The position numbers and the translations under genes were made by a program. From NCBI GenBank assembly GCA_033819885.1, contig JAQYUZ010000006.1:248001-312000 (forward strand): DNA of 64,000 nucleotides, written 5' to 3'. Positions 23,901-48,254 of this stretch are shown here, in pieces. This DNA comes from Microbotryomycetes sp. JL201. Its lineage: Eukaryota; Basidiomycota; Microbotryomycetes. Each line of letters starts with the position of its first letter. Positions within the stretch are counted from its first letter, which is position 1. Under the pieces are notes generated by a model that did not search any database, was not told the origin of the DNA, and saw only the letters and a program-made list of their open reading frames with translations.

Positions 23901-25718
23901 CCTGTCCATAATGATCTCGTTGATCCCGTACATACGCGAGCTTCTTCGGAGACATTTGACGACCAAGCAAGCCGTCATGTTGACCGAGTTTGACAAGCTC
24001 AAGCGAGACTATCAGGAGCATCAGAACGAAATTCACGCAAAGTTGGTCGCTATCATGGGCGACCGCTTACAAGTGCATTCTCGGACTCTGGCGGTGAGTT
24101 GCCCCGTTTTTTTACTCGCCATGCGACGCGCCAAAGCTGACCGTGAGTGCAGTTAATCGACTGGGAGCAACCGAATGAGAAACCGGGTCCAAACCCGTGG
24201 GTCGAACAACTTGTCAAGGAGAACGTGACACTTCATCGAGTCTTGTCGCGGTTGCTGTCCCCTGATACAGTGACCTTCATCATGCGGCACGTCTTCGACG
24301 CGCTCGAGAGTCGGCTCAAGGAAGAATTTGGCAAGATTCCTCTCAAGAGTGACGCGGCGAAAGAAAAGCTGTTGACGGATGCGACGTTCCTGCATAATAA
24401 GCTCGGAGATTTGCAGGGGCTGGACCTCGCTAGTCCAGGCCGGGTTAGAGCTTGATCCAAATTACTTGCACTGTCCAACTGCTGATGTTGCATGGCCCAG
24501 GTGTTGATTGATCTCGTGCAAAGCAAGACTGTCGACAAACCTTCGACACCAACTTTGTCATCAGCCGCTCCAGCGCAAGGTTCTAATGCGTCCACAACAT
24601 CGGTCGGCACTTCCAGGTCTTCAGGGGATACGCCCGACCTGTCGCATTCGGACACGCCAGCGCGAACCTCGCTCGAGCAGCCACCGACACCCGTTATTGG
24701 CACCGCAAACACTAGCGTCCTCCCCCAGTCACAAGCGTCGACTGCGCCGCCAACGCCTGACCCGAGTGGTGCCCGAAGGTCGAGCGATGCGCACGTTGCA
24801 CCATCCCCAAACGTGCCTTTGTCTGGTGCACCTGCCAAAAAGAAGACAATTGCAGAGAGGCTGGCGGAGATGGCAAAGAGGGGGCATCGCCCTGCATCCA
24901 CCGTTACCCATCCAGCGACCCCGAAAACAGACAGCGGGCTCGTGTCCAGCGCAACTACGGCCTCTTCTGTTGCAGGATCACCCGTCCCAAGGTCTAGCTT
25001 CGAGGCTCAACCATCGGCGCAGCTTGCCGACGGTGCAGTCTCGGCGCAGATGGAGACTAGTGCACAGCCCACGAGGTCAGATCGAGATCATCTCGATGAG
25101 CTCGTTCGCTCGCCAAAACCTCAAAGTAGTGGCGGATTCGATGATCGAGAGAACGCACATACTCAAAGAGCGCTTGCACTTGTTGCGCCAACTGACGAGG
25201 CCAACATAGACGATGGCTCAGTGGAGGCGCAGACTGAAGGAGCAGTGCCAGCTCCCGCTTCGTCGAGTCCCTCTACGGCGACAGGTGCGGTGCCGACTGT
25301 TGCCGAGGCCGAGTCTGCCGAAATTTTGACCTCATTGCCGTCGGAAGCCACCAGAGACGAGGCAGACAGCAATGATTCTGATAAGGCGACCGATGCGAAG
25401 GAGGATGCTTCGGTGGCAAGGAATCCGGTGGAGATCGAGCTTCAGGAAGCTGAATCGATTCTGGCTGAGACGGACACCAGGAAGACGGAGATTGCCAAAC
25501 ACGAAAACGCTGTTTCAACAGACGAGACGGATGGAATTTTGGCAGAGGTGGATAATCTCGTTGCCGAAGATCAACAAAGAACGGGATCCACATCAGCAAC
25601 ACTGGACGAAAACTCTGGTGGTGGCGATGCATTGTCAGTGAAGGCCGACAATGCGACGTCGGGTGCGATGAAGACCGATATAGACGTCGAGGAAGTAGAA
25701 GAGTCTTCTTTCTTGTAA
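20985..25718 (+). CDS. VPS54: Vps54, GARP tethering complex subunit
   Basis: GARP/EARP subunit that tethers endosome-derived vesicles at the trans-Golgi. Exons join in phase: MAAAGQRPYNG... to YPISSLLQDPNAPLSILP, then the long N-terminal exon (VPQIFFDPSFNLSNPRTFDL, LSHYTAIIESHLVREIGLRS, coiled coil FFSALSNLQSLHQQGEDTL), a 65-nt or so intron near 22755, the C-terminal helical rods (LGVRTETHNNLSLAQFLDVF, AFVLRCEQVCQRMIVGLRG, HGIRYAQIYSDDTV), and WEQPNEKPGPNPWVEQLVKE. After VLIDLVQSKTVDKP comes an unusual acidic, Ser/Thr/Glu-rich tail of about 400 residues ending VEESSFL. ATG at 20985 chosen; an upstream in-frame Met exists at 20913. Confidence 0.92.
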
Positions 25719-25846
25719 AGTTTGCGGAAGGCAAATCTCAAGTCAGCGACTTGTACTGTTGTATGGTTGAGATTGTACCTTGCCTTTGCAAGTCGAGACA
25801 AGACTTGAACACCCTTGGATTGTTTCGATTCACGGTCCGAACGGCA

Positions 25847-27762
25847 ATGACAAGTCGAGCAACGGGGATGATCGACTTGCCTGTCGAGCTTGTGCCTTCT
25901 ATTCTTGGTCACCTGCGTCTGAGACGAGGCGACTTGCACCGATGCATGCTCGTCTCGCGCGTGTGGTGCGCCGTCGCCGAGCGCGAGCTCTACGCTTGGA
26001 TCAGGCTATGGGGCAAGGACCTGGTGCGTCCAAGGCTTGGATCCGTTTCAAGCTACAACAGCGTCTGATCTGCCCGTGACAGGCCATCGTCGAATCGCTC
26101 TTTCGCTCGCTCGCCGAATGTCCTCGGCGATGCAGGCTTGTCAAAATGCTCGAAGTCAGAGTGTTTCCTTTGCCGTTCAAGGTGCAAGAGCGACTAGAGA
26201 TGGAACAATTGGCAATAAAAGTCTTGCGCCAATGCTCAAACCTGCGACAGTTGCTATGGAGCCGAAAGGGCGCACTGACCGATGAGTGCGTCACTTTCGG
26301 CGCGTGTGAATGCAGAACTTTCGACTGATGTATTGTGGCGTCCGTTCATTGCGCCCACCGCTGCACCGCAGCGTGTTCGACGCCATTACGGCTTTGCCAC
26401 TCGATAGATTCGAGTTCAACGGATCTACGAACCTCTCTCCTGGGTCTTGGTCGACTGACTATATGCTGCATCTGCACCCGCTCGTGTCACTGTCCGTGAT
26501 AATGCCAGACCGGAACGTCGCCGAGGCATTGCCGCGTATGCTTCGAATTAGAAGAGCCCAAACAAGACCCGATGGCAAGAGCTTGGAGGACCTGACCATT
26601 CTCTGCCGAGAGTCCCCCAACATCAGCGATAGAATCATGTACGAATGTTCGAGATATCTAGATGGCACACGGTTGCGGTCATTGGCTCTGGCTGGGTGCT
26701 CCAAGCTGTCCGGAGCGCCAATCCTCTCACTTTTGCCGACTTTGCCTGCGCTCGAGCATCTCTCTCTTGAAGCGACCAACATTCACGCCATGTATCTGTC
26801 TCAATTTGCACCGCATCTGAGCGGCTTGCTATCCCTCAAGCTCACGCATCCCGGTCCTGGGCATCCTCAAGAAGCAAGCTTTTTCGACGGGCTCGAGACG
26901 ATATTCATCCACGCCCGTCGACTCGAAGCATTCACGCTATACCATAGTGGCGTGTCTGGCACGGAATCGAGGGTTTGGCCTGTTTTACCCCAGACTTTTA
27001 TCGAATCCGTCGGCAATACCGTGGGACGAAACCTAAACAAGTTTGAATGCTCCAACATTCTTATTCCGTTGGACAGGATGGTACGGCTGTGCTCAATGCT
27101 TGTCAATGTGCGGGACTTGGTCGTGCATGCCCTCTTTGACGCCGGACCGGCAAGTTGTCAGACACGTAAAACCATGCGAATGAACTGATCCGATTCAATC
27201 GCAGAACCTGATTGAGCACGTCGCTGTTCCATTGAGTCAGTTGAACGGCCTCAGGACTCTTCACATCCTATCTCAATACCCCGACATTCCGTATGATCAA
27301 GTCGTCTGGCTCGCCTCGCAGTCAGTTGTTGGCTTTCGAGACGTTGTCGATCTGTAAAACAGCTTATACATTCTTGCTCGCAGATGCACTGTCACATTAA
27401 GACAAATCGGTTTGCGCAACAGAGTCTGGCACGTCGATCGAGTTCGACCGTCAAAGGATTCTGGGGAAACCAAAGTCAGTTTGAGAAGGTGGGACTCGCC
27501 TTTGTGGCCAGAAGCTTTGCTCGTCGTTCGAACTTGAAGTGTATGCGCACGAGAATCTTGTTCGAGTGTGTTCTCGTGTGTTTTTTGATACAAAGTCTTG
27601 CTGATCACTGAATCGATTTCATTTCCGATTGGACAGAAGCGGACGGGAATCAGACTCGTCGAGACGGCGGAGGCGTTTGGAGCGTTCAGGCGATCAAGGT
27701 ACGGCGCAGAAGAGGACGCCGAACCAGGCTCGAACGGTGACTCGGCAGAAGAGGACGCGTAA
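25847..27762 (+). CDS. F-box/leucine-rich-repeat-like protein
   Basis: An F-box (MIDLPVELVPSILGHLRLRR, then LHRCMLVSRVWCAVAERELY) suggests a substrate receptor for an SCF ubiquitin ligase. LRR-like segments follow (LTDD-VFDAITALPL after splicing, LRSLALAGCSKLS, LPALEHLSLEATNI, LSGLLSLKLTHPG, LNKFECSNILIPL). To keep the frame after DAGP the intron 27150-27204 must start with GC (GCAAGT) rather than GT; it then continues NLIEHVAVPLSQLNGLRTLH, TVTLRQIGLRNRVWHVDR and, by my reading, a 27-nt exon (KLCSSFELE at 27512-27538) and a last acidic exon 27637-27762. The 3' end from 27475 is uncertain: without the last two introns the protein ends at 27537. Confidence 0.7.
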
Positions 27763-33108: not shown

Positions 33109-36100
33109 ATGGCACCTCCATCAAATGTGTCACTGCTGACGGGAGAGCACGTGCCCGACTCGTACATTCACGCTGCAGGCGCTCACTTTCAATTGTCGGA
33201 CGGGCGCGTCATTCTCCTGCGCGGCATCAACCTCTCGTCCTCGGCAAAGACACCTCGCAACCAGCCAGGACACCAATATGACGGGTTTTGGGACAGTGCA
33301 AAATCAGGCAAGATGTCGTTCGTCAACAGGGTACTCGATTTGGACGATGGCCGCGCTGACGAGCACCTCGAGCGACTGCGCGAATGGGGCTTCAACACGC
33401 TCAGATACGTCATCACATGGGAGGCCATAGAGCACGCAGGACCGTCAGTCATGCCCGCTGCCACGAGGTCCGAGCGCGTCAGAGCCGCACCGCTGACGCC
33501 ACAACCCGTGTCGTGCGGCGTCTGTTTCACAGTGGCAAATACGACGACGACTTTATCGAGTACACGGTCAAGGTCTTGCGCAAGTGCAAGCAACATGGCT
33601 TCCTAGTCTACATGGACCCCCATCAGGACGTGGTCTGTGCCCTCGTTGTGTCGGTTTTGCTGCAAACGAAACAGCTGACACCGTCACCGGCAGTGGTCTC
33701 GCTTCTCTGGCGGCTCTGGCGCACCATACTGGACTCTGATCGCATGTGGCCTCAACCCGCAACATTTCAATGCCACGGCGGCAGCTTACATTCAATGCGA
33801 GTGGCCATCACCAAGCAACCCAGACCCCGCACAATTTCCCGCCATGATCTGGGCAACAAATTATTCGCGTTTGGCGTGTCAAACCTTGTTCACATTGTGG
33901 TTCGGAGGACGCGACTTTGCTCCTAAATGCATCATAAATGGTGTCAACATTCAGGACTTTTTGCAAGAGCACTACTTTAACGCCATGAGGCAAGTCGGCA
34001 ATGCCATCCGAGACGCTGGCGACTTGCTCGACTCGTGCGTTATAGGCTGGGACTCGCTCAACGAGCCAAACGCAGGCTACATTGGGCTCAGCTCGCTGGC
34101 AGAGTTTGGCAAAGAAAGCGTGAGCATGTTGAAGGTTGGGCCCATGTCCACGCCGTTTCAGGGCATGCGATTAGGGATGGGCGAGCGAGTCGAGTTGGAA
34201 AACTGGAAATTTGGCCCTCTCGGCCCAAAAAGAGACGGTAGCGTCATAGTCGACCCAAAGGGGACGCGCGCATGGCTCGATAGCGACGCCGAAGCCGAGG
34301 GATCGCCCTACGGATGGGTACGTGGACAAGATTGGGAACTTGGGACGTGTATCTGGGGCTTGCACGGCGTTTGGGACCCCGAGACGAGTCAAATACTCCA
34401 GCCAGATTACTTCTCTACGAACCCGTCAGGCAGCAGTCGAGAAAAGGTCGAGTTTGGACGTGATTACTGGTTGCCGCATTGGGAGCGTTTCGCACCAGTC
34501 GTTCGCGAATTCCATGCGGAAGCAATTCACTTTATCCACAGTCCGGTGTTTCAGGTCCCACCGGATATGCACCACGTGGGACCACGGGTGGCACACTCGA
34601 CGCACTACTATGATGGTTTGACTCTGATTACAAAACATTGGGTGCGCGGAGTTTTCGCTCAAAATCCGCAAATTTGCCGCTGACACTTCCACCCGTACAG
34701 AACTGGTTTAACGCCGATGCTCTCGGCATCCTCAGAGGGTCAGTCGCGCGACAGCCGACTGATGAACCACCGTCTCAATTGCCGCTCTATATTTGCAGGA
34801 AATACCCGTCTGTCCTTTTCGGTGTCAAAGTTGGCGAGGCGGCGATTCGTAAATGTCTGCGGGAGCAGCTTGGCATGCTTCGTCAAGACACGTTGTCCGC
34901 AATCGGCCAAGTGCCGACCATGATGGGCGAGATCGGAATTCCGTACGACCTCGACAGGAAGAAGGCGTACGTCGATGGAGACTACACGAACCAAGTGCGC
35001 GCGATGGACGCAAGCTTGAACGCCTGTGATGGCGGCAATGCCCTGAACTACACCATCTGGTGTTATTGTCCTGATAACTCGCACGAATGGGGCGACTTGT
35101 GGAATGGGGAGGACCTCAGCGTCTGGAGTCATGATGACGCACGAAGGATGACAGACTTCCGAGCTTCGACGGATCAGCTCGACTTGATGGGCAAGGTGCC
35201 AAAGTCGAGGTCTCGTGCGGGGTCGAAATCGAGCTCGCTCAGTTCGAGCACATACTCGTCACGCCAATCGTCTAGTTTGCAGATCCCTTCTATACCCGAG
35301 GATGGCACGCTCAAGATGACGTCGCCCCCCCTTGTGGTCAACACCGATCTGAGACGGTCACCGCAGCCAGCTTCGACTTTGGAATTATTATCGTCGCCAA
35401 CAGATAGCGTCGAAGCTCATTCGCCGTTGAAACCTCACAAGTCGCCTGTAATGTCCAACTCGTCAAGCTTGACACTAGGAAAGTCTATAGACCCGTACCA
35501 ACCCATCAGCCTCAACGACGGCGCTCGAGCGCTGGCTGCGTTCGTCAGGCCGTTTCCTGTCAAGACAGTTGGCACGCCCGTCGACATTAATTTCGACGTC
35601 AGATCGTCAAAATTCACATTGACCATTCGCGTCAGCCCGGAGGACGTCACTGACGCCAGCTTGCCGACCGAGGTGTATGTACCTCTCGTGCATTACGCCG
35701 CGTACCCTTCGAGAGTCAGTCAGATCATCAGGGACGATATTGCCGAACTCGAAATCGATCCAGCCTTGTCGCCGACGGACGATAGCGTTTTGAAACAAGG
35801 TGCATCGCCGACAAGTTTGAATCTGCCAAATGAGGCGGCCGAGGACGACCCGACAGCGTTGGCCTTGAAGGTGAAGGTGTCGACGGGCCGGTGGGAGACG
35901 CAAGGTCAAATTCTCAAGTGGTATTACCCGAGGCCGACGAGAAGCAGTACCATCGTCAAGCTCGAGCTCGAGAGGTTGAACGGGGCAATTCCAACTTGGT
36001 CAGTTTCGGTCTTGTTTCACTCTGGCGCCCGACTGTTGTTTTGATCTGACTCGTCCTACATTCTCATTGCTTGCAGGGTCAACCAGTGGGCAAGTGAGCG

Positions 36101-37148: not shown

Positions 37149-38318
37149 ATGTCGTCTACAGAGCCGGTGCGACTGCTCGTGGCTAATCAAAGAGCGTATG
37201 TGTGGGACGTGCAAGGTGTGTCTGTCAAGCGATCGGCTAGTCCGATGCTTTCGCCGAGCCTTTGTACGTATGTGACTGACACGCTGTTCTCGAAGATGTG
37301 CAACGTCTCAGAGTGCAACATCACGTATGTGGTCATCTAACAGGCACGCTACCGCAACTTGGTCAGCAGAACGTCTTCCTAGGCCTGCCGCTCTTGCTCC
37401 TGCCCGAGGAAGTTGTTACGCTCGTCAGAAACAGTCAGTTGCACGGGTCGCGAACAGCACGTCAAGCATGCTTATGTCCGCTGTCGCAGACCTGGCTGTC
37501 TTAATCGATGACGTTGCAGCACACCGCCGTGCCACACCAGAGCAAGCTCGAACGTATGCTCTGCAGCGCGACAAGGCGATCGAAACTCAAATCAGACTCG
37601 CACAGCAAGCAGAGCAAGAGAAGCAAGCCAAAATGGCAGACGTTATTGCAAGGAATCGAGAGGAAAAGCGGCGCAAGCAGGCGCTCGAGAGAGAGGCACA
37701 AGTCAAAGCGGCGCAAAACGAGAGCAGGGCAGCAACACAACAAGACGAGGAAAATCTAGATCTATTTGTATCCGGCAAGCTTGATGGGAAGGATACTACT
37801 GGCCCGCCACCTGCCCTGTCTGGAAAGGCACTAGCAGAACATCCTCACACCATCGTGATTCAACCGAGCTCGATCGACTTGCCGTGGTACGACCCGGAAA
37901 GCGCCAAGTATACGACTCTAGAAGCCGCCAGGCAAGCTGGCATTTGGCATTACCCCGAGACGCCGTTGCAGCAGACACGGTGCGACGTCTTTCAAGATTT
38001 GTGGAGGAAAGGCTATTTCATGGGCGGAGGATTGAGATTCGGAGGCGACTTTCTGGTGTATCCGGGTAAGTCTGCGTTGTCTACCTCGACTCTCAAACCT
38101 CGGCGCCTGACTCTGTTCTTGCAGGCGATCCGCTTAGATACCATTCTCATTTTACTTTGACCGTCTTGACAGCACCTCGGTCAACCGTCATGCCACTGGA
38201 CCTTGTAGCTTACGGCCGGCTGGCCACGGCGGTAAAGAAGGCTCACTTGCTAGCCAGTTGGGACGACGAAGCTCAACAAGCACAATACTTTTCTCTTGAA
38301 TGGGCTGCATTTGGCTAG
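37149..38318 (+). CDS. SEN34: tRNA-splicing endonuclease catalytic subunit Sen34
   Basis: Cleaves the 3' splice site of intron-containing pre-tRNAs. ATG at 37149 (MSSTEPVRLLVANQRAYVWD) is followed by an intron, then RVQHHVCGHLTGTLPQLGQQ, LPEEVVTLVRN, a basic coiled coil (REEKRRKQALEREAQVKAAQ), and the C-terminal nuclease domain: FQDLWRKGYFMGGGLRFGGD with the catalytic Tyr, then after an intron DPLRYHSHF with the catalytic His, and ATAVKKAHLLA with the catalytic Lys. Ends with FSLEWAAFG. The complete triad indicates an active enzyme. Confidence 0.94.
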
Positions 38319-38919
38319 AAGAATTGCATTGTGGCAGCTACCAAGCTCGTTTCGCCGCATGACTTTGCGAAAATACGATCAATAATGTAATTGCGCCCTC
38401 TCTCGATTTGCCGCTCTTTTTTTTTTGAATTCTGCTTCAATGTTGACGGTCTGTCGTCTGAACACGCATGTCCAGAATGACGACCGGCTTGCGTGCGCCA
38501 AGCCCGACCTGCGTCTTTCAAGATGCAGCCAGACCTGCAACTGGTATGCAAGCCGTTCGGTTCATCCTTCCGCCTCGACGTTATCCACGTGACGTCCTTT
38601 GCTCGCGTTTCGTGTGGTTCGCGTACGGTCAGCTGCATTTGGCGGCGCCGACAGCGTCAGAGAAACTCTCCTTTGGCCACTTGCAAGTACCCAAGCACAT
38701 CATGCGAATGCCTAAACATTGTTGCGAATCGCATCTAGTCGACAAGTGAGCACAGTGTAGCAAATATTCGAGCTTTTTCGTCTTGCAGATTCTAGTCGCG
38801 AAACAACAGGAAAGGGTACATTCAGCACAAGACAAGCTGGCCCACACTACTTGCGATGTTACTCGTTGCATGAACGCGTCTTTTGCTTAGACACATGACC
38901 TCTGGATAGATATCGGCTA
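38319..38919. other. Gene-free interval upstream of the telomeric repeat
   Basis: About 600 bases after SEN34. Contains a run of T (about 38418-38428) but no coding frame with family resemblance, no RNA gene and no repeat that recurs in the window. Confidence 0.45.
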
Positions 38920-39000
38920 GCGTTCCGAACTGTTTCCTTGCAATCTAACCCTAACCCTAACCCAAATTCGCCGGTGCGGTGCCAGTTCGGAACGCACCGG
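38920..39000. repeat. Nested inverted repeats around a telomeric tract
   Basis: A perfect 13-base inverted repeat, GCGTTCCGAACTG at 38920-38932 and its complement at 38983-38995, flanks the telomeric repeat with a 50-base loop. A second perfect pair, CCGGTGCG at 38971-38978 and CGCACCGG at 38993-39000, overlaps the right arm. Just beyond, AAGTGC-GTA-GCACTT at 39013-39027 is a third hairpin. Read directly from the sequence. Confidence 0.9.
38944..38963. repeat. Interstitial telomeric repeat, about three units of TTAGGG
   Basis: Three consecutive units of CTAACC/CCTAAC on the plus strand (TTAGGG on the minus strand), the canonical fungal telomere motif, far from any chromosome end in this window: ordinary genes lie on both sides. 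Could be a relic of a chromosome end, a telomerase-healed break, or binding sites for a TTAGGG-binding factor such as Tbf1/Teb1. Confidence 0.9.
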
Positions 39001-39047
39001 CGGCGCGCTTGCAAGTGCGTAGCACTTTTCATGTTGCTTAAAAAGCC

Positions 39048-39053
39048 TATAAA
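39048..39053 (+). promoter_or_regulatory. TATA-like element ahead of the satellite
   Basis: CCTATAAATTAATG sits about 75 bases before the first hairpin monomer. It could drive transcription of the array, but nothing else in the sequence proves this. Confidence 0.3.
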
Positions 39054-39128
39054 TTAATGTATCTGATCTGCAACAGCGGAAGCTCCAGAAGAGCGGAGGT
39101 GGTTTTAAGCACGTCCAATGTCCAAAAA

Positions 39129-39662
39129 GTGTCGCTCGCGAAATGCGCCCGCTTTTGCGGGCGTGTTTTCATGGCGCAAAAAAAGTGCCGCTGGCAGAAC
39201 GCGCCCGCTTTTGCGGAACGATATCCGGCGCGCAAAAAAAGTGTCGCTGGTAGAATGTGCCCGCTTTTGCGGGCGTGTTTTGATGGTGCACAAAAAAGTG
39301 TCCCTAGTAATATGTGCCCGCTTTTGCGGGCGTGTTCTCATGGTGCACAATAAAATGTCCCTGGTAGAATGTGCCCGCTTTTGCGGGCGTGTTTTCATGG
39401 CGCAAAAAAAGTGCCGCTGGCAGAACGCGCCCGCTTTTGCGGAACGATATCCGGCGCGCAAAAAAAGTGTCGCTGGTAGAATGTGCCCGCTTTTGCGGGC
39501 GTGTTTTGATGGTGCACAAAAAAGTGTCCCTAGTAATATGTGCCCGCTTTTGCGGGCGTGTTCTCATGGTGCACAATAAAATGTCCCTGGTAGAATGTGC
39601 CCGCTTTTGCGGGCGTGTTTTCATGGCGCAAAAAAAGTGCCGCTGGCAGAACGCGCCCGCGA
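39129..39662. repeat. Tandem hairpin satellite with 226-bp higher-order repeat
   Basis: Monomers of 56-57 bp begin at 39129, 39185, 39241, 39298, 39355, 39411, 39467, 39524, 39581 and 39637 (last one truncated). Four monomer types (B 56, C 57, D 57, E 56 bp) form a 226-bp unit present twice, 39185-39410 and 39411-39636, identical by eye, preceded by one E-like monomer and followed by 26 bases of B. Nearly every monomer contains the perfect hairpin GCCCGC-TTTT-GCGGGC (half is altered in B) and an A-rich junction. Because 226 is not a multiple of 3, the open frames seen on both strands shift between copies, so I treat the array as non-coding. Confidence 0.93.
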
Positions 39663-39847
39663 TTGTCGGAGCAAATTTCATGTTGGACTCGGAAAAGTCA
39701 TCATCAGTCATTCACTGGTGACGTTCTCGCTTCAGGAGTGCGAAAGCATCAACACTCAGCGCACGACGAGCAACAGATATGACCAGTACAGTGGTTACAA
39801 TCAGGGTTTACGACAGGAAATTACCATTGTATGCCTAAAACGTTATT
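39663..39847. other. Intergenic, 3' side of the casein kinase gene
   Basis: Unique AT-richer sequence after the array; probably the 3' UTR of the minus-strand kinase. Confidence 0.4.
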
Positions 39848-41602
39848 TTAAAAACACCGACATTTCAGCAGGTTCATGAGCGAGAAGCCTTGTTTCGGTC
39901 GATCGCCGTTTGCACCTCCGCCGGCTTCATTGTCTCGTGCATCTTGACCAAGTCGTTCTGCGGCCATTTGACTGGGTTGGCGATCGTATGGGTTGGACGA
40001 GTTTACTTTTTGACCGCCTGCGGGCACGCCTTTAACGCCTACGGCGGAAGCCCCAGGTGTCGGTGCCGCGCTGCCTTGTGGACCGGTCTTGGTCGCCGCT
40101 GCCGCTGCCGCTGCAGCAGCCGCGCTCGCCCTTTGCTGATGCCGCAATTCCCGTTCCCGATCGCGCGTACCCCGTTGAGGTGCCGCGCTTGCGAGCAAGT
40201 GTGACGAGCTCCCTGCCTCCCATCCCTTTCCATTGTTCAACAACATCCAATCGTACACTTCGTCCTCGACCTCGCCAGCATTCTTGAGCGCCTTTGTCAA
40301 CAAATCCCGGAGAAAATCATAGTCTGGCGTCTCTTCAAACCCGAGTTTGCGAACGTAATTGAGGTAGATGCCAAACTCGGCGGGCAACCCTTCGGTCAAA
40401 TCTTTGACTGGTGTGCTTTGCTTCTTTTCGCCAATCTTTTCATACTTTTGCTTGTTCGTAGCGGCTTTCAGTCCCTGCCACGGCAAGGACCCTCGGAGAA
40501 AGTACATGAACACGTGCCCGAGGGACTCGAGGTCATCGCGTCGGGATTGCTCTCGGCCCAAATGAGTGTTGATAGACATATAGCGCGCCGTGCCAGACAA
40601 GCTTTTTCTTTCGCGGTAAGGAATGTGTTGCTTCGTCTTTGGATCTCGGTACTGTTTGGCCATGCCAAAGTCGATCAAGTGGACGAGGTTGGCAGTTTTG
40701 GTGCCCGGTCTACCAATGAGAAAGTTGTCGGGCTTGATGTCTCGGTAAATGAGAGACCGGCCATGGACGCTCTCGATCCGGGAGATCTGTACGGAGTGGG
40801 GTCAGGGCTCGTTCGCGAACGATGCAGATTTCTATGCGAACCATCTGTTTGGCCACCATGACGACAGTCTTGACACTAAATTTGCGTCCACACATGTCGA
40901 ACAAGTCCTCTAGACTCGGCCCGAGCAAGTCGATGACGAGGATGTTGTGGAGTCCTTCTTGGCCAAAGTAGTATACCTGCGGAATTGCAATGTTAGTTCA
41001 AGATCTTCTGGCAGGCATGTGCGCGCTTTAGTGAACCGCCCAGACCCACTTGAGGAATGCCAACTGCAGCCACGAGCGAGTCAGTGCCTCGGTGGTTCAG
41101 GGACATGGATTGTGACGCACCGCATCCTTGCAAGATCTTGTATGTCCTGTACTCGTCTCTCAGCTGAGGTGCATCGCTCTTGCGCGGTTCCTGTTTAGAG
41201 TGTGCGGAGTTCCAGGCCACGCGCGGGGTCAGTCGTCGAGATGGCGTCCGCCGAAGCGTGCGAGCACACGCACGAATTTAATGGCGACCGTCTGCGAGTT
41301 CAGTAGATTGGTGCCTGTTCAGGTAGGATTAGGTCAATGAAGCGTCGGCAATTGAGCGAGATGTGTGCGCGCCGCGCGTGCCAGTCTCGATCGTCTCGAA
41401 GGGCGGCACAAGGCGCCGTTCCGAGACGACAGCGACGCCAACACGCAGAGCTAGAAAGCGCTCGAGTAGCGATCGACTCACCTTCAAAGATGACGCCAAA
41501 GCTGCCCTCGCCAATCTTGCGGATCGGGCGGTACTGGACGCCGACGACAGCGCTCGAGCTGCTCACATGGTGCGACGCAGCACCGGCCATGTCGCGCGAC
41601 AT
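39848..41602 (-). CDS. Casein kinase 1, membrane-anchored Yck1/2 type
   Basis: Ser/Thr kinase of the plasma-membrane CK1 group (nutrient sensing, endocytosis, morphogenesis). Exon 1 (ATG 41602) has the glycine loop [12 protein letters not shown]; the next exon supplies the ATP-binding Lys ([12 protein letters not shown]), then [51 protein letters not shown] (catalytic loop), [13 protein letters not shown], and the CK1 signature [16 protein letters not shown]. After the kinase come poly-Ala and Gly-rich low complexity and the end LLKCRCF: a CaaX-like box with a second Cys, where yeast Yck1/2 use a palmitoylated C-terminal CC. Several introns of 50-100 nt. Confidence 0.94.
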
Positions 41603-41989
41603 GCAATGGCTGGGCTGTCACGTCTCAGTCACGCCCTGCGCCGCTGTTGCTGCTTGTCGGCGCGCTCGTGCCCGGATCTGCGGCAGACACACGCAGCCGG
41701 CTGTCCGCCGTCACGAACAACCTAGGAGCCAAAAAAACAACTACCCGCCCCGCCGAGGCTTGGGCAGCAGACCGGACTGCTCGATTATCCATTCGAAATG
41801 CATTAAAGTGTACAATCAACAAGTAAGAAATCGACAGCTCTGTGGCAATCGCGAGAAGTACCCCAGATTCCGGTGGCACAAAGCAATCGGCATCGCAACA
41901 GCTTGGCCGGTCCTGGCTCAAGCACCTGGACAAAGGGCTTGCCACACAGGTATGTTTGTGTTTCTGGCGACGTGCCGGCCTTTGACCGA
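41603..41989. other. Intergenic
   Basis: About 390 bases between two minus-strand genes; open frames here are antisense or out-of-frame extensions. Nothing else seen. Confidence 0.45.
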
Positions 41990-46025: not shown

Positions 46026-48254
46026 ATGTCGGCCCCGCAGCGGAGCGATGAGGAGCAGCCAGAGCACATCTCCAAGTTTGGCCGGACCAACATGTCGTTT
46101 ATCGAGCCCGGCAGCGACGGTCGAACGTTCTCGCGCACGGCAACGCAGTCTTCGCTCGGGTCCGTCGTCGGCTTGACTTGCAGCGACGATCACAAGGTAA
46201 GAATGTTGTTGTGATGCTCACAGTATGTGTCAGCCGTACTGGGCGGTGGAAAGAGCCAGTCGAATGGCATGGGCTAGCTTAGCGCGCGTGCGCGCCCCGA
46301 GCTCGAGTGGGGCAACGATGTTCATTCTTGTTCATGAACTCGTCGGAGCTCGCACACCGTGGCCAGAATGGACAGCGTTGATCCGACAACCGTTTTGTAC
46401 CAATCGACATTCATACTCGTCCAGAACGCTCTAGCACGTGACACTGACACGGTTCTGTTCTGGCTATTCCAGGTCGTCTGCTGGACAGACATCTTTCAAC
46501 CGCCAGTTGTCAGACAGTATATCCAGAACGGCCGCTTGTTCCGCGAGCGCCAAGAGCGCACACCAGACCGCTTTGAATTGTTCTTGGACTTGGTCCTAGG
46601 TGCGCTCAGCCTGCCAAAAGAAACCCATCTTCCTAACGGCTTTAACACATTCCCGTGGACAGTCGGGGTCGTGCACCAGCTCGCCGATGTCGCTCTCGAA
46701 GGAGGGTCAAACGGAGCCACGACGGCAAAGATCGTACTGTGTTTCTACGTTTGCTGGTCAATCTGGAGCGACACGCGCACTTGGTCAAATCAGTCTGGCG
46801 TCGACGACGTCACTCAACGCATCCAAGTGCTCGCCATCCTCATCTGCTTGTGCGGATTCAGCGTCAATGCGGCAGCTATCGAAGTCGGCCCAGGATCAGC
46901 TGCCGAAGAAGCGGCAAGTGCTGCTCACCGATTCGTCAGAAGAGCAGCCGAAGCCGTTACAGGGCACGACAGTGTAGGATCCAGTGCCGAAGCCGCAGTC
47001 GAGCACCACGGTCGACAGCACGCCGTCGTCGCCGCTACCGCTTTCTTCCTCGTTGCCAAACTGATCCGAATCGTTACTTACGTCGGCTACGCGTACTGGT
47101 TGCCCGACTTTCGATCAAGTCACTTATCTCGTGTCGCTGGGTTATGCGCCGTCAGTCTCGTGTTTCTCGGTTGCTTGATCGCAAAGGACATTCGCACCGT
47201 GGCCATCATTGCCGGTGTCGGTGCCATCTTTGAGATCGGGCTTAAATTCACCGTCGGTATCATGGTTGCCATCGAACGACACCGGTACATGAAGCGCCAA
47301 CGCGACTCGGACGAGTCCGAGTTGGCCGAAGAGTCTTTCATTACGAGCAAAGGTCGCAAGCTGCCCGCTTTCAACCTCGAGCACATGGTCGAGCGCACTG
47401 CCGCTTTCGTCACGGTTGTCTTGGGCGAGTCTATCGTGTCTCTTTTGTTTACGGCCAGGCAAGGATCGTTTGGCCTCAGTGACGAGTTTGCACGAGCGAT
47501 TTTCGGTTTGACGATCGCGTTCACGCTCAATGCCGTCTTTTACGATTCCGCATTGTCCCGCAAATTCACGCACGCCATCAGGCGTCATTGGATCACGCAC
47601 ATTTTGTGGGACGTCGCGCATTACCCTCTTTGTACCGGCTTGATCTTGTCGTCTGCCGCTTTGCACCGTATGGTCGCAGAGGCCGAGGCATCACCACGAG
47701 CGACTCATTGGCAATACGGTGGAGGTTTGGCAGTCAGTCTCGCCTGTATCGCCATCATTGGTCTCTTGCACGAGTCTCTGGACGCCGCCGGGACCAGTCG
47801 GCTGAACCAATTCGCTAGGGCGCTCCTTAGGTTCGCCGTCGCACTCATTTTCGCCCTGTTGCCTTTGGCAAACTGGTCGACAAATTTGAGTTATTTGGGT
47901 ACAAATTTGGGCGTGTTTGCGACGTTGGTCGTGTTTGAGATTTGGATCAAACTTGGTCGACAAGAGGTCGACAACGTTGATCACCATTTCGTCGATGCGG
48001 ACCGACAAGAAGAATTGGAAGAGCGGTTGGCCGCCGTTGTTCAGAGACAGTCAAACAGGTTGTCGAATGATGCTACTACAACTGCAGCTGGAGGAGGACC
48101 GGATGGCGCTCAACCTCGCAAGTTGAGGTTCAGAACAAAGAGCGAAGAAGACATGGACACGTTGGAATCGGAAGAGACGCATTCGGCATTGGCGGCGCAA
48201 TTGGGCGTGCCCGCTGTGCCGATCGTGTCGAGGCAGAGTCAGAATGGCAAGTAG
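46026..48254 (+). CDS. LtrA-family multi-pass membrane protein
   Basis: Low-temperature-requirement A family, first described in bacteria and present in many fungi; function unknown. A short disordered N-terminal exon (MSAPQRSDEEQPEH ... GLTCSDDHK) is joined across an unusually long 276-nt intron (46197-46472) to one long exon. That holds RFELFLDLVLGALS, ATTAKIVLCFYVCWSIWSDT, VLAILICLCGFSVNAAAI, LIRIVTYVGYAYWLPDF, VAIIAGVGAIFEIGLKF, LEHMVERTAAFVTVVLGESI, IFGLTIAFTLNAVFYD, HILWDVAHYPLCTGLILSSA, LRFAVALIFALLPLANW. The EHMVERTAAFVTVVLGE block is the strongest family signature. The tail is charged. The long intron might hide a further small exon. Confidence 0.88.

Follow-up and report, generated by a model that had tools for sequence, protein, structure and literature searches.

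A short tandem array of 57-bp hairpin-forming units with a 226-bp higher-order repeat, probably a local minisatellite, between convergent genes of Microbotryomycetes sp. JL201

The locus and its neighbouring genes

The stretch of DNA considered here, called the window throughout, comprises 64,000 nucleotides of contig JAQYUZ010000006.1 of Microbotryomycetes sp. JL201 (C56:248001-312000 in the contig numbering used below), and coordinates given without a contig name are positions within it. A short tandem array of hairpin-containing monomers lies in the non-coding space between two genes that converge on it, so that the first-pass annotation was right to place the array between ordinary genes. 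The main features of this neighbourhood are as follows.

37276-38318, + strand: upstream gene, SEN34-like, with a tRNA-intron-endonuclease catalytic domain spread over two open frames (from a putative start to the stop)
38316-39848, no strand: convergent intergenic space, from the stop of the SEN34-like gene (38316-38318) to that of the casein-kinase-I gene (39848-39850)
39848-41617, - strand: downstream gene of casein-kinase-I type, assigned from its PDB match, with the further exons upstream of the last frame only sketched

The domain scores for the upstream gene are 34.8 bits, which is above the cut-off, and 23.3 bits, which is below the curated cut-off of 27; the subunit is presumably SEN34. 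For the downstream gene, the last frame (39851-40801) has casein kinase-1 as its best PDB match (E 1.6e-89).

Some other features of the window may be recorded at this point. A gene of glycoside-hydrolase family 5 type extends in several frames over 33679-36041: the frame at 34638-36044 carries the GH5 C-terminal domain, while that at 33679-34680 gives nothing in Pfam and matches, among solved structures, 7lpo most closely and then 8exd, a sterylglucosidase A (entries from Cryptococcus and Aspergillus). An open frame of 631 amino acids at 46359-48254 has an LtrA (low temperature requirement A) domain, and a Vps54 frame gave no match in the PDB.

Architecture of the array

The array consists of ten monomers, here numbered M1 to M10, of 56-57 bp each, and its parts can be delimited as follows.

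39118-39660, no strand: whole array, M10 being cut off after its GCCCGC arm (from Tandem Repeats Finder, register copies and monomer alignment)
39147-39372, no strand: 226-bp higher-order unit, copy 1 (from the exact match at lag 226)
39373-39598, no strand: 226-bp higher-order unit, copy 2, identical to copy 1 (from the identity at lag 226)
39599-39660, no strand: partial third copy of the 226-bp unit, 62 bp, the putative exchange repeat R (288 = 226 + 62)
39147-39162, + strand: perfect hairpin GCCCGCTTTTGCGGGC of M1 (from a 16-mer search)

Tandem Repeats Finder reports a period of 57 at 39124-39660 (9.5 copies, score 636) and, with a higher score of 1031, a period of 226 at 39142-39660 (2.3 copies, 99% matches). 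Copies in register place the monomer starts at 39118, 39174, 39230, 39287, 39344, 39400, 39456, 39513, 39570 and 39626, giving spacings, in order, of 56, 56, 57, 57, 56, 56, 57, 57 and 56 bp. These two lines of evidence confirm the ten tandem monomers described in the first-pass annotation, and its further claim of two identical copies of a four-monomer unit is borne out by the aligned monomers, among which M2-M5 and M6-M9 show no differences. The four monomer types themselves differ pairwise at 7-25 of the 56-57 aligned positions, and thus the copies of the multi-monomer unit are more alike than are the monomers within it. M1 is not a fifth exact copy, 13 of its 56 positions being different in M5.

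The higher-order organisation can be defined rather precisely. Compared with itself at lag 226, the sequence shows uninterrupted identity over as many as 288 nt (39147-39434 against 39373-39660), which means that the segment 39147-39660 comprises 2.27 error-free copies of the 226-bp unit. As 288 is the sum of 226 and 62, the array reads R-x-R-x-R, where R is 62 bp and x is 164 bp, the other copies of R being at 39147-39208 and 39373-39434. Both ends of the identity block, 39147 and 39660, coincide exactly with a GCCCGC hairpin arm. Neither the Tandem Repeats Finder scores nor an exact match of 288 nt can be put down to chance.

The perfect 16-nt hairpin GCCCGC-TTTT-GCGGGC had been attributed to nearly all of the monomers, but it is in fact present in seven of the ten: besides M1, it occurs in M3, M4, M5, M7, M8 and M9 (at 39259, 39316, 39373, 39485, 39542 and 39599, respectively). 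In M2 and M6 the 3' arm is instead GCGGAA, while M10 diverges directly after GCCCGC. The open frames that run across the array are taken to be by-products, because 226 is not divisible by 3 and successive copies therefore shift the frame.

Genomic distribution and position

The assembly searched comprises 17,152,241 bases in 92 contigs; it may be incomplete, and the genome search used skips very common words. In this assembly (17.15 Mb) the whole array is found in one place, and shorter probes give the same picture: the core 16-mer, allowing up to one mismatch, and a 25-mer of the unit, allowing up to three, are each found in seven places, all of them inside the array (the reversed 25-mer, used as a control, is found in none). 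The 813 bp immediately to the left of the array likewise occur once in the genome. In the prokaryote genome collection a 23-mer of the repeat is nowhere matched exactly. Within the window, a covariance model of the unit, run with filters on, picks out five places in the array together with two weak matches (E 1.2 and 2.3). The flanks were also searched for decayed monomers, which visual inspection had made seem likely, but the best candidates are not significant, scores as high being reached by 149 of 300 shuffles on the left and 267 of 300 on the right; a 19-nt direct repeat that flanks the array with 84% identity likewise fares no better than shuffles when scored as a decayed monomer.

The array, at about 0.54 kb, is situated 287 kb into a contig of 563,871 bp, at least 276 kb from either contig end. 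Telomeric CCCTAA/TTAGGG runs sit at contig ends of the assembly, while on this contig the telomeric 13-mer CTAACCCTAACCC is matched at just two overlapping places, both in the 19-nt run at 38945-38963 (see below), and therefore no telomere closes the contig in the assembly; the distance from the array to the true chromosome end is accordingly at least 276 kb.

Higher-order organisation of this kind had been described as typical of centromeric or subtelomeric satellites, but such an identity is not supported for the array. Satellites of that kind would be expected to form long arrays or to occupy many loci, and the subtelomeric ones to lie near a chromosome end, whereas here there is one locus of about 0.54 kb in a 17.15-Mb assembly, in mid-contig and between two conserved genes. 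Mapping of the monomer genome-wide, which had been proposed as a check, bears on the simpler view that the array is an inert local duplication: of the findings named as favouring that view (a single locus, a fixed copy number across strains, and no associated transcript or protein), it is the single locus that is found, and it is found for this assembly.

Folding of the hairpins and conservation of their core

Given the palindromic nature of the monomers, it is natural to consider how far the array would fold and whether its folding might have a function. When folded as a whole (563 nt), the array lies well below its shuffles on both strands (z -8.28 on the + strand, z -5.32 on the - strand), and also as single-stranded DNA (z -4.02); it lies further below them on the + than on the - strand because G-U pairs lengthen the + stems. 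At the scale of 200-nt windows neither strand folds consistently better. In a scan of 658 such windows over both strands, comprising 638 regular tiles and 20 windows placed around the array, every window being compared with 25 shuffles, the five lowest z-scores all fall in the array (the best being -6.91 on the + strand and -6.29 on the - strand), but all five belong to windows that had been placed there by hand. Among the 638 regular tiles, those in the array reach -4.52 (+), -4.46 (+) and -4.37 (-), ranking after the tile at 25601-25800, so that the predicted folding of the array would, taken by itself, be less striking than it appears at first sight. The tile just mentioned has the strongest fold of all the regular tiles (z -5.08, - strand), and it lies in or near open frames at 24492-25939.

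One interpretation, which we regard as unlikely, would give the array a function in the two converging genes, as an RNA or DNA element such as part of a 3'-UTR, a structure at the end of transcription, or an array of protein sites with the sequence GCCCGC-TTTT-GCGGGC. Its position near the gene ends would suit such a role, as it lies 799 nt beyond the SEN34-like stop (read on the + strand) and 187 nt beyond the casein-kinase-I stop (read on the - strand). A search of both strands of the intergenic space for six polyadenylation-like hexamers speaks against it, having given just two AATAAA, both within the array on the + strand, and one TATAAA, at 39048 on the + strand. That the array is present at a single locus also implies that it is not a general element.

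The predicted structures of the individual units give a similarly divided picture. On the + strand, three of the five distinct units (U1, U3 and U5) have predicted stems of 13-14 bp, in keeping with a functional hairpin; however, in the folds predicted for U2 and U4 the long first stem retains just 4 and 6 bp, respectively, and the second hairpin of U3 is predicted in a different register from that of U1. Folded singly on the + strand, U1, U3 and U4 do better than most shuffles (z -3.87, -3.85 and -1.87) while U2 does not (z -0.69), the corresponding values for the - strand being -1.59, -4.26 and -3.25 for U1, U3 and U4 and 0.29 for U2. Nor does the pattern of substitution point to selection for pairing: no pair has changed on both sides in either the first hairpin (0 of 13) or the second (0 of 8), though with five distinct units this comparison has little power, and standard pairs fill 86.2% of cells in the first hairpin, against a shuffled mean of 89.2%, and 85.0% in the second, levels that are equalled or exceeded by all 500 shuffles in the one case and by 264 of 500 in the other. 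For both hairpins, pairing does exceed that obtained when the partners are slid by 1-3 columns.

In favour of a function, the hairpin core is the best-conserved stretch of the monomer. In an alignment of the five distinct units, which did not include M10 (this monomer diverges inside the core), every one of the 14 columns of the core GCCCGCTTTTGCGG is invariant, as against 20 of the 46 other columns, and when the columns were permuted 10,000 times an invariant run of this length appeared in 16 cases. An invariant core could, though, reflect conversion between monomers as well as selection.

Finally, a permissive Rfam search produced 13 matches at E values of up to 5, all of them below gathering; those to bacterial RNA families, of which the best were speF (E 0.017) and isrB (E 0.047), are taken as chance matches to hairpins.

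Origin of the array

Tandem units of roughly 10-100 bp at one locus are what characterises a minisatellite, and this is what the array presents. The explanation that we consider best, with a probability of roughly 0.8, is that it is a local non-coding minisatellite of the convergent intergenic region, probably with no sequence-specific function, whose higher-order repeat arose by later unequal exchange. Most likely, a hairpin-forming unit of about 57 bp would first have been multiplied in tandem by replication slippage or unequal exchange, processes that the palindromic GCCCGC/GCGGGC core would favour, and the four monomer types would have diverged from one another before the last duplication. 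One later unequal exchange between two copies of the 62-bp R would then suffice to convert R-x-R into R-x-R-x-R, yielding the error-free 226-bp repeat. The suggestion in the first-pass annotation that recent unequal exchange or gene conversion had been at work is thus well supported, the 288 nt that are error-free at lag 226 being set against the 7-25 differences that separate the monomer types.

It is of course necessary to ask whether so perfect a repeat might have been created in the assembly. This could apply to the error-free second copy of the 226-bp unit, i.e. to the higher-order repeat and not to the 57-bp array, and the complete absence of mismatches over 288 nt is in line with such an artefact. 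Nevertheless, we consider it rather improbable, as assemblers collapse repeats of this kind more often than they expand them. The 57-bp array itself could not have been produced by duplicating one unique sequence, because the monomer types differ at 7-25 positions. An array generated by slippage or exchange at this locus, as set out above, remains the preferred reading.

The interstitial telomeric run and the telomerase-RNA interpretation

Ahead of the array lies a short run of telomeric sequence, together with an inverted repeat that encloses it.

38945-38963, + strand: interstitial telomeric run CTAACCCTAACCCTAACCC, 19 nt, C-rich on this strand, treated here as separate from the array
38920-38932, no strand: left arm of a perfect 13-bp inverted repeat around the telomeric run, the right arm being at 38983-38995

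The run is 154 nt ahead of M1. Its enclosing arms, GCGTTCCGAACTG and CAGTTCGGAACGC, form the only perfect inverted repeat in the 64-kb window that has arms of at least 12 bp and a loop of 3-100. Immediately 3' of the run, a 10-bp hairpin (38969-38978/38993-39002) competes with the 13-bp stem; the two stems are interleaved, with three shared bases and no linker between their 3' arms, and, judged by eye, are thus probably alternatives and not the halves of a pseudoknot, which in basidiomycete telomerase RNA would contain a U-A.U triple helix.

Away from the telomeric runs at contig ends, and among the 100 of 129 matches to CTAACCCTAACCC that were listed, the 13-mer is found at C15:72001, at C16:438 and at the two overlapping places in the window. 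At the first of these there is a second 19-nt interstitial run (C15:71998-72016), apparently between divergent open frames, which may be a promoter element resembling a telobox, or else a scar left by repair; at the second there is a 15-nt run (C16:437-451), about 436 bp from the contig start.

A C-rich telomeric run ahead of a structured array invites the idea that the intergenic region is a telomerase-RNA locus: on this view it would be one non-coding gene in which CTAACCCTAACCCTAACCC served as a 19-nt template in the loop of the 13-bp stem, the stem itself as the boundary helix, and the tandemly duplicated hairpin array as a 3' appendage. The idea has some attractions, although we consider it very improbable. 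The run is C-rich on the strand of the upstream gene, and the 13-bp arms around it stand out from those around the C15 and C16 runs, where the longest perfect arms within 100 bp are just 6 and 7 bp. The 231-nt fold of 38900-39130 is better than shuffles (z -2.32, with 3 of 200 as good). A template search with one permutation of six (DCTAACCCTAAC, in which D = not C, i.e. CTAACCCTAAC with a non-C base in front) gave three matches genome-wide, at this locus, at C20:145561 and inside the C37 telomere, as compared with nine for the reversed control. In Ustilago maydis, ter1 is described as lying behind a protein-coding gene, in a region with two 90-bp tandem repeats, TRR1 and TRR2 (PMC10035886).

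Against these points, the run fits the TTAGGG telomeres of this genome but is 3.2 repeats (19 nt) long, whereas templates in Ustilaginales are given as 9-11 nt (PMC10035886), and the similar run at C15:71998-72016 shows that 19 nt of telomeric sequence can be found elsewhere in the genome. No Sm-like site of the form AAT5-6[GC], which in basidiomycete telomerase RNA would read AAU5-6CY and lie close to the 3' end, is present on either strand of 38316-39848, the closest sequence on the + strand being AATTTC at 39674. A P6.1-like (CR4-5) motif, sought in 38964-39848 by sequence alone with the motif of one species, does not rise above shuffles, the best score on either strand being 9 of 15 against a shuffle mean of 9.8. 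Rfam gives no match at gathering and, for telomerase RNA, just a 12.2-bit match to Telomerase-vert (E 2.1). The longer, 456-nt fold of 38670-39125 does not improve on its shuffles (z 0.43).

The gene neighbourhood does not help either. The protein-coding neighbour of ter1 in U. maydis is, we believe, EMI1, of family PF11326. For Malassezia, the telomerase RNA is placed between NDK1 and a DUF1115 gene (PMC12506658). Neither an EMI1 nor an NDK1 neighbour is found at the window: the match to PF11326 is at C2:30770 and those to NDK are at 517 kb on C78 and at 44 kb on C50, all on other contigs, and no template-like 9-mer occurs in the 9-10 kb around any of these matches. Telomerase RNA was accordingly set aside as the main reading, for want of an Sm-like site, a P6.1-like motif, a gathering match in Rfam and an EMI1 or NDK1 neighbour, and in view of the poor 456-nt fold. 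If it were nonetheless true, the telomeric stem-loop would mark a new telomerase-RNA locus and a new genomic setting for that gene in fungi.

As for the notion that a palindromic element of the dispersed, MITE- or REP-like kind happens to have been amplified in tandem here, its one point of support is that the monomers are palindromic, and it was rejected as scarcely credible, such an element being expected in several copies and this one having a single locus, with the 25-mer absent outside the array at up to three mismatches, the 813 bp upstream found once and the flanking direct repeat no better than shuffles.

Relation to known systems and significance

As a local minisatellite, the array can usefully be set beside several better-known kinds of repeat. 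It resembles the intergenic minisatellites or VNTRs of fungi in being a short tandem array of units of some tens of base pairs between genes; what distinguishes it from them is the palindromic unit, the fixed 14-nt core and the two-copy higher-order repeat. With higher-order repeats of the alpha-satellite type it has in common a multi-monomer unit whose copies are far more similar than its monomers, but alpha-satellite forms long centromeric arrays, whereas here there are ten monomers, at a single mid-contig locus, and apparently one event.

The TRR1/TRR2 repeats of the U. maydis ter1 locus are alike in that tandem repeats share an intergenic space with a run of telomeric sequence. They are, however, two 90-bp repeats that are 96.67% identical and are reported to be exclusive to U. 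maydis (PMC10035886), as against ten 57-bp hairpin units here, and the gene neighbours and Sm-like site of the ter1 locus are not common to the two. The run at 38945-38963 compares with known short interstitial telomeric sequences in that a stretch of telomeric repeat, here 19 bp, lies well away from any contig end; it differs from them in lying inside a perfect 13-bp inverted repeat, in contrast to the 6- and 7-bp arms at C15 and C16. A non-exhaustive survey of article listings and the opening lines of abstracts, covering minisatellites of fungi as well as higher-order repeats and telomeric sequences of the interstitial kind, did not turn up the repeat of this array.

What the array offers is a compact example of a higher-order repeat that appears to have arisen from a single exchange, with a block of identity that is bounded by hairpin arms. 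It also serves as a reminder that a centromere should not be assumed from the higher-order structure of a short array alone.
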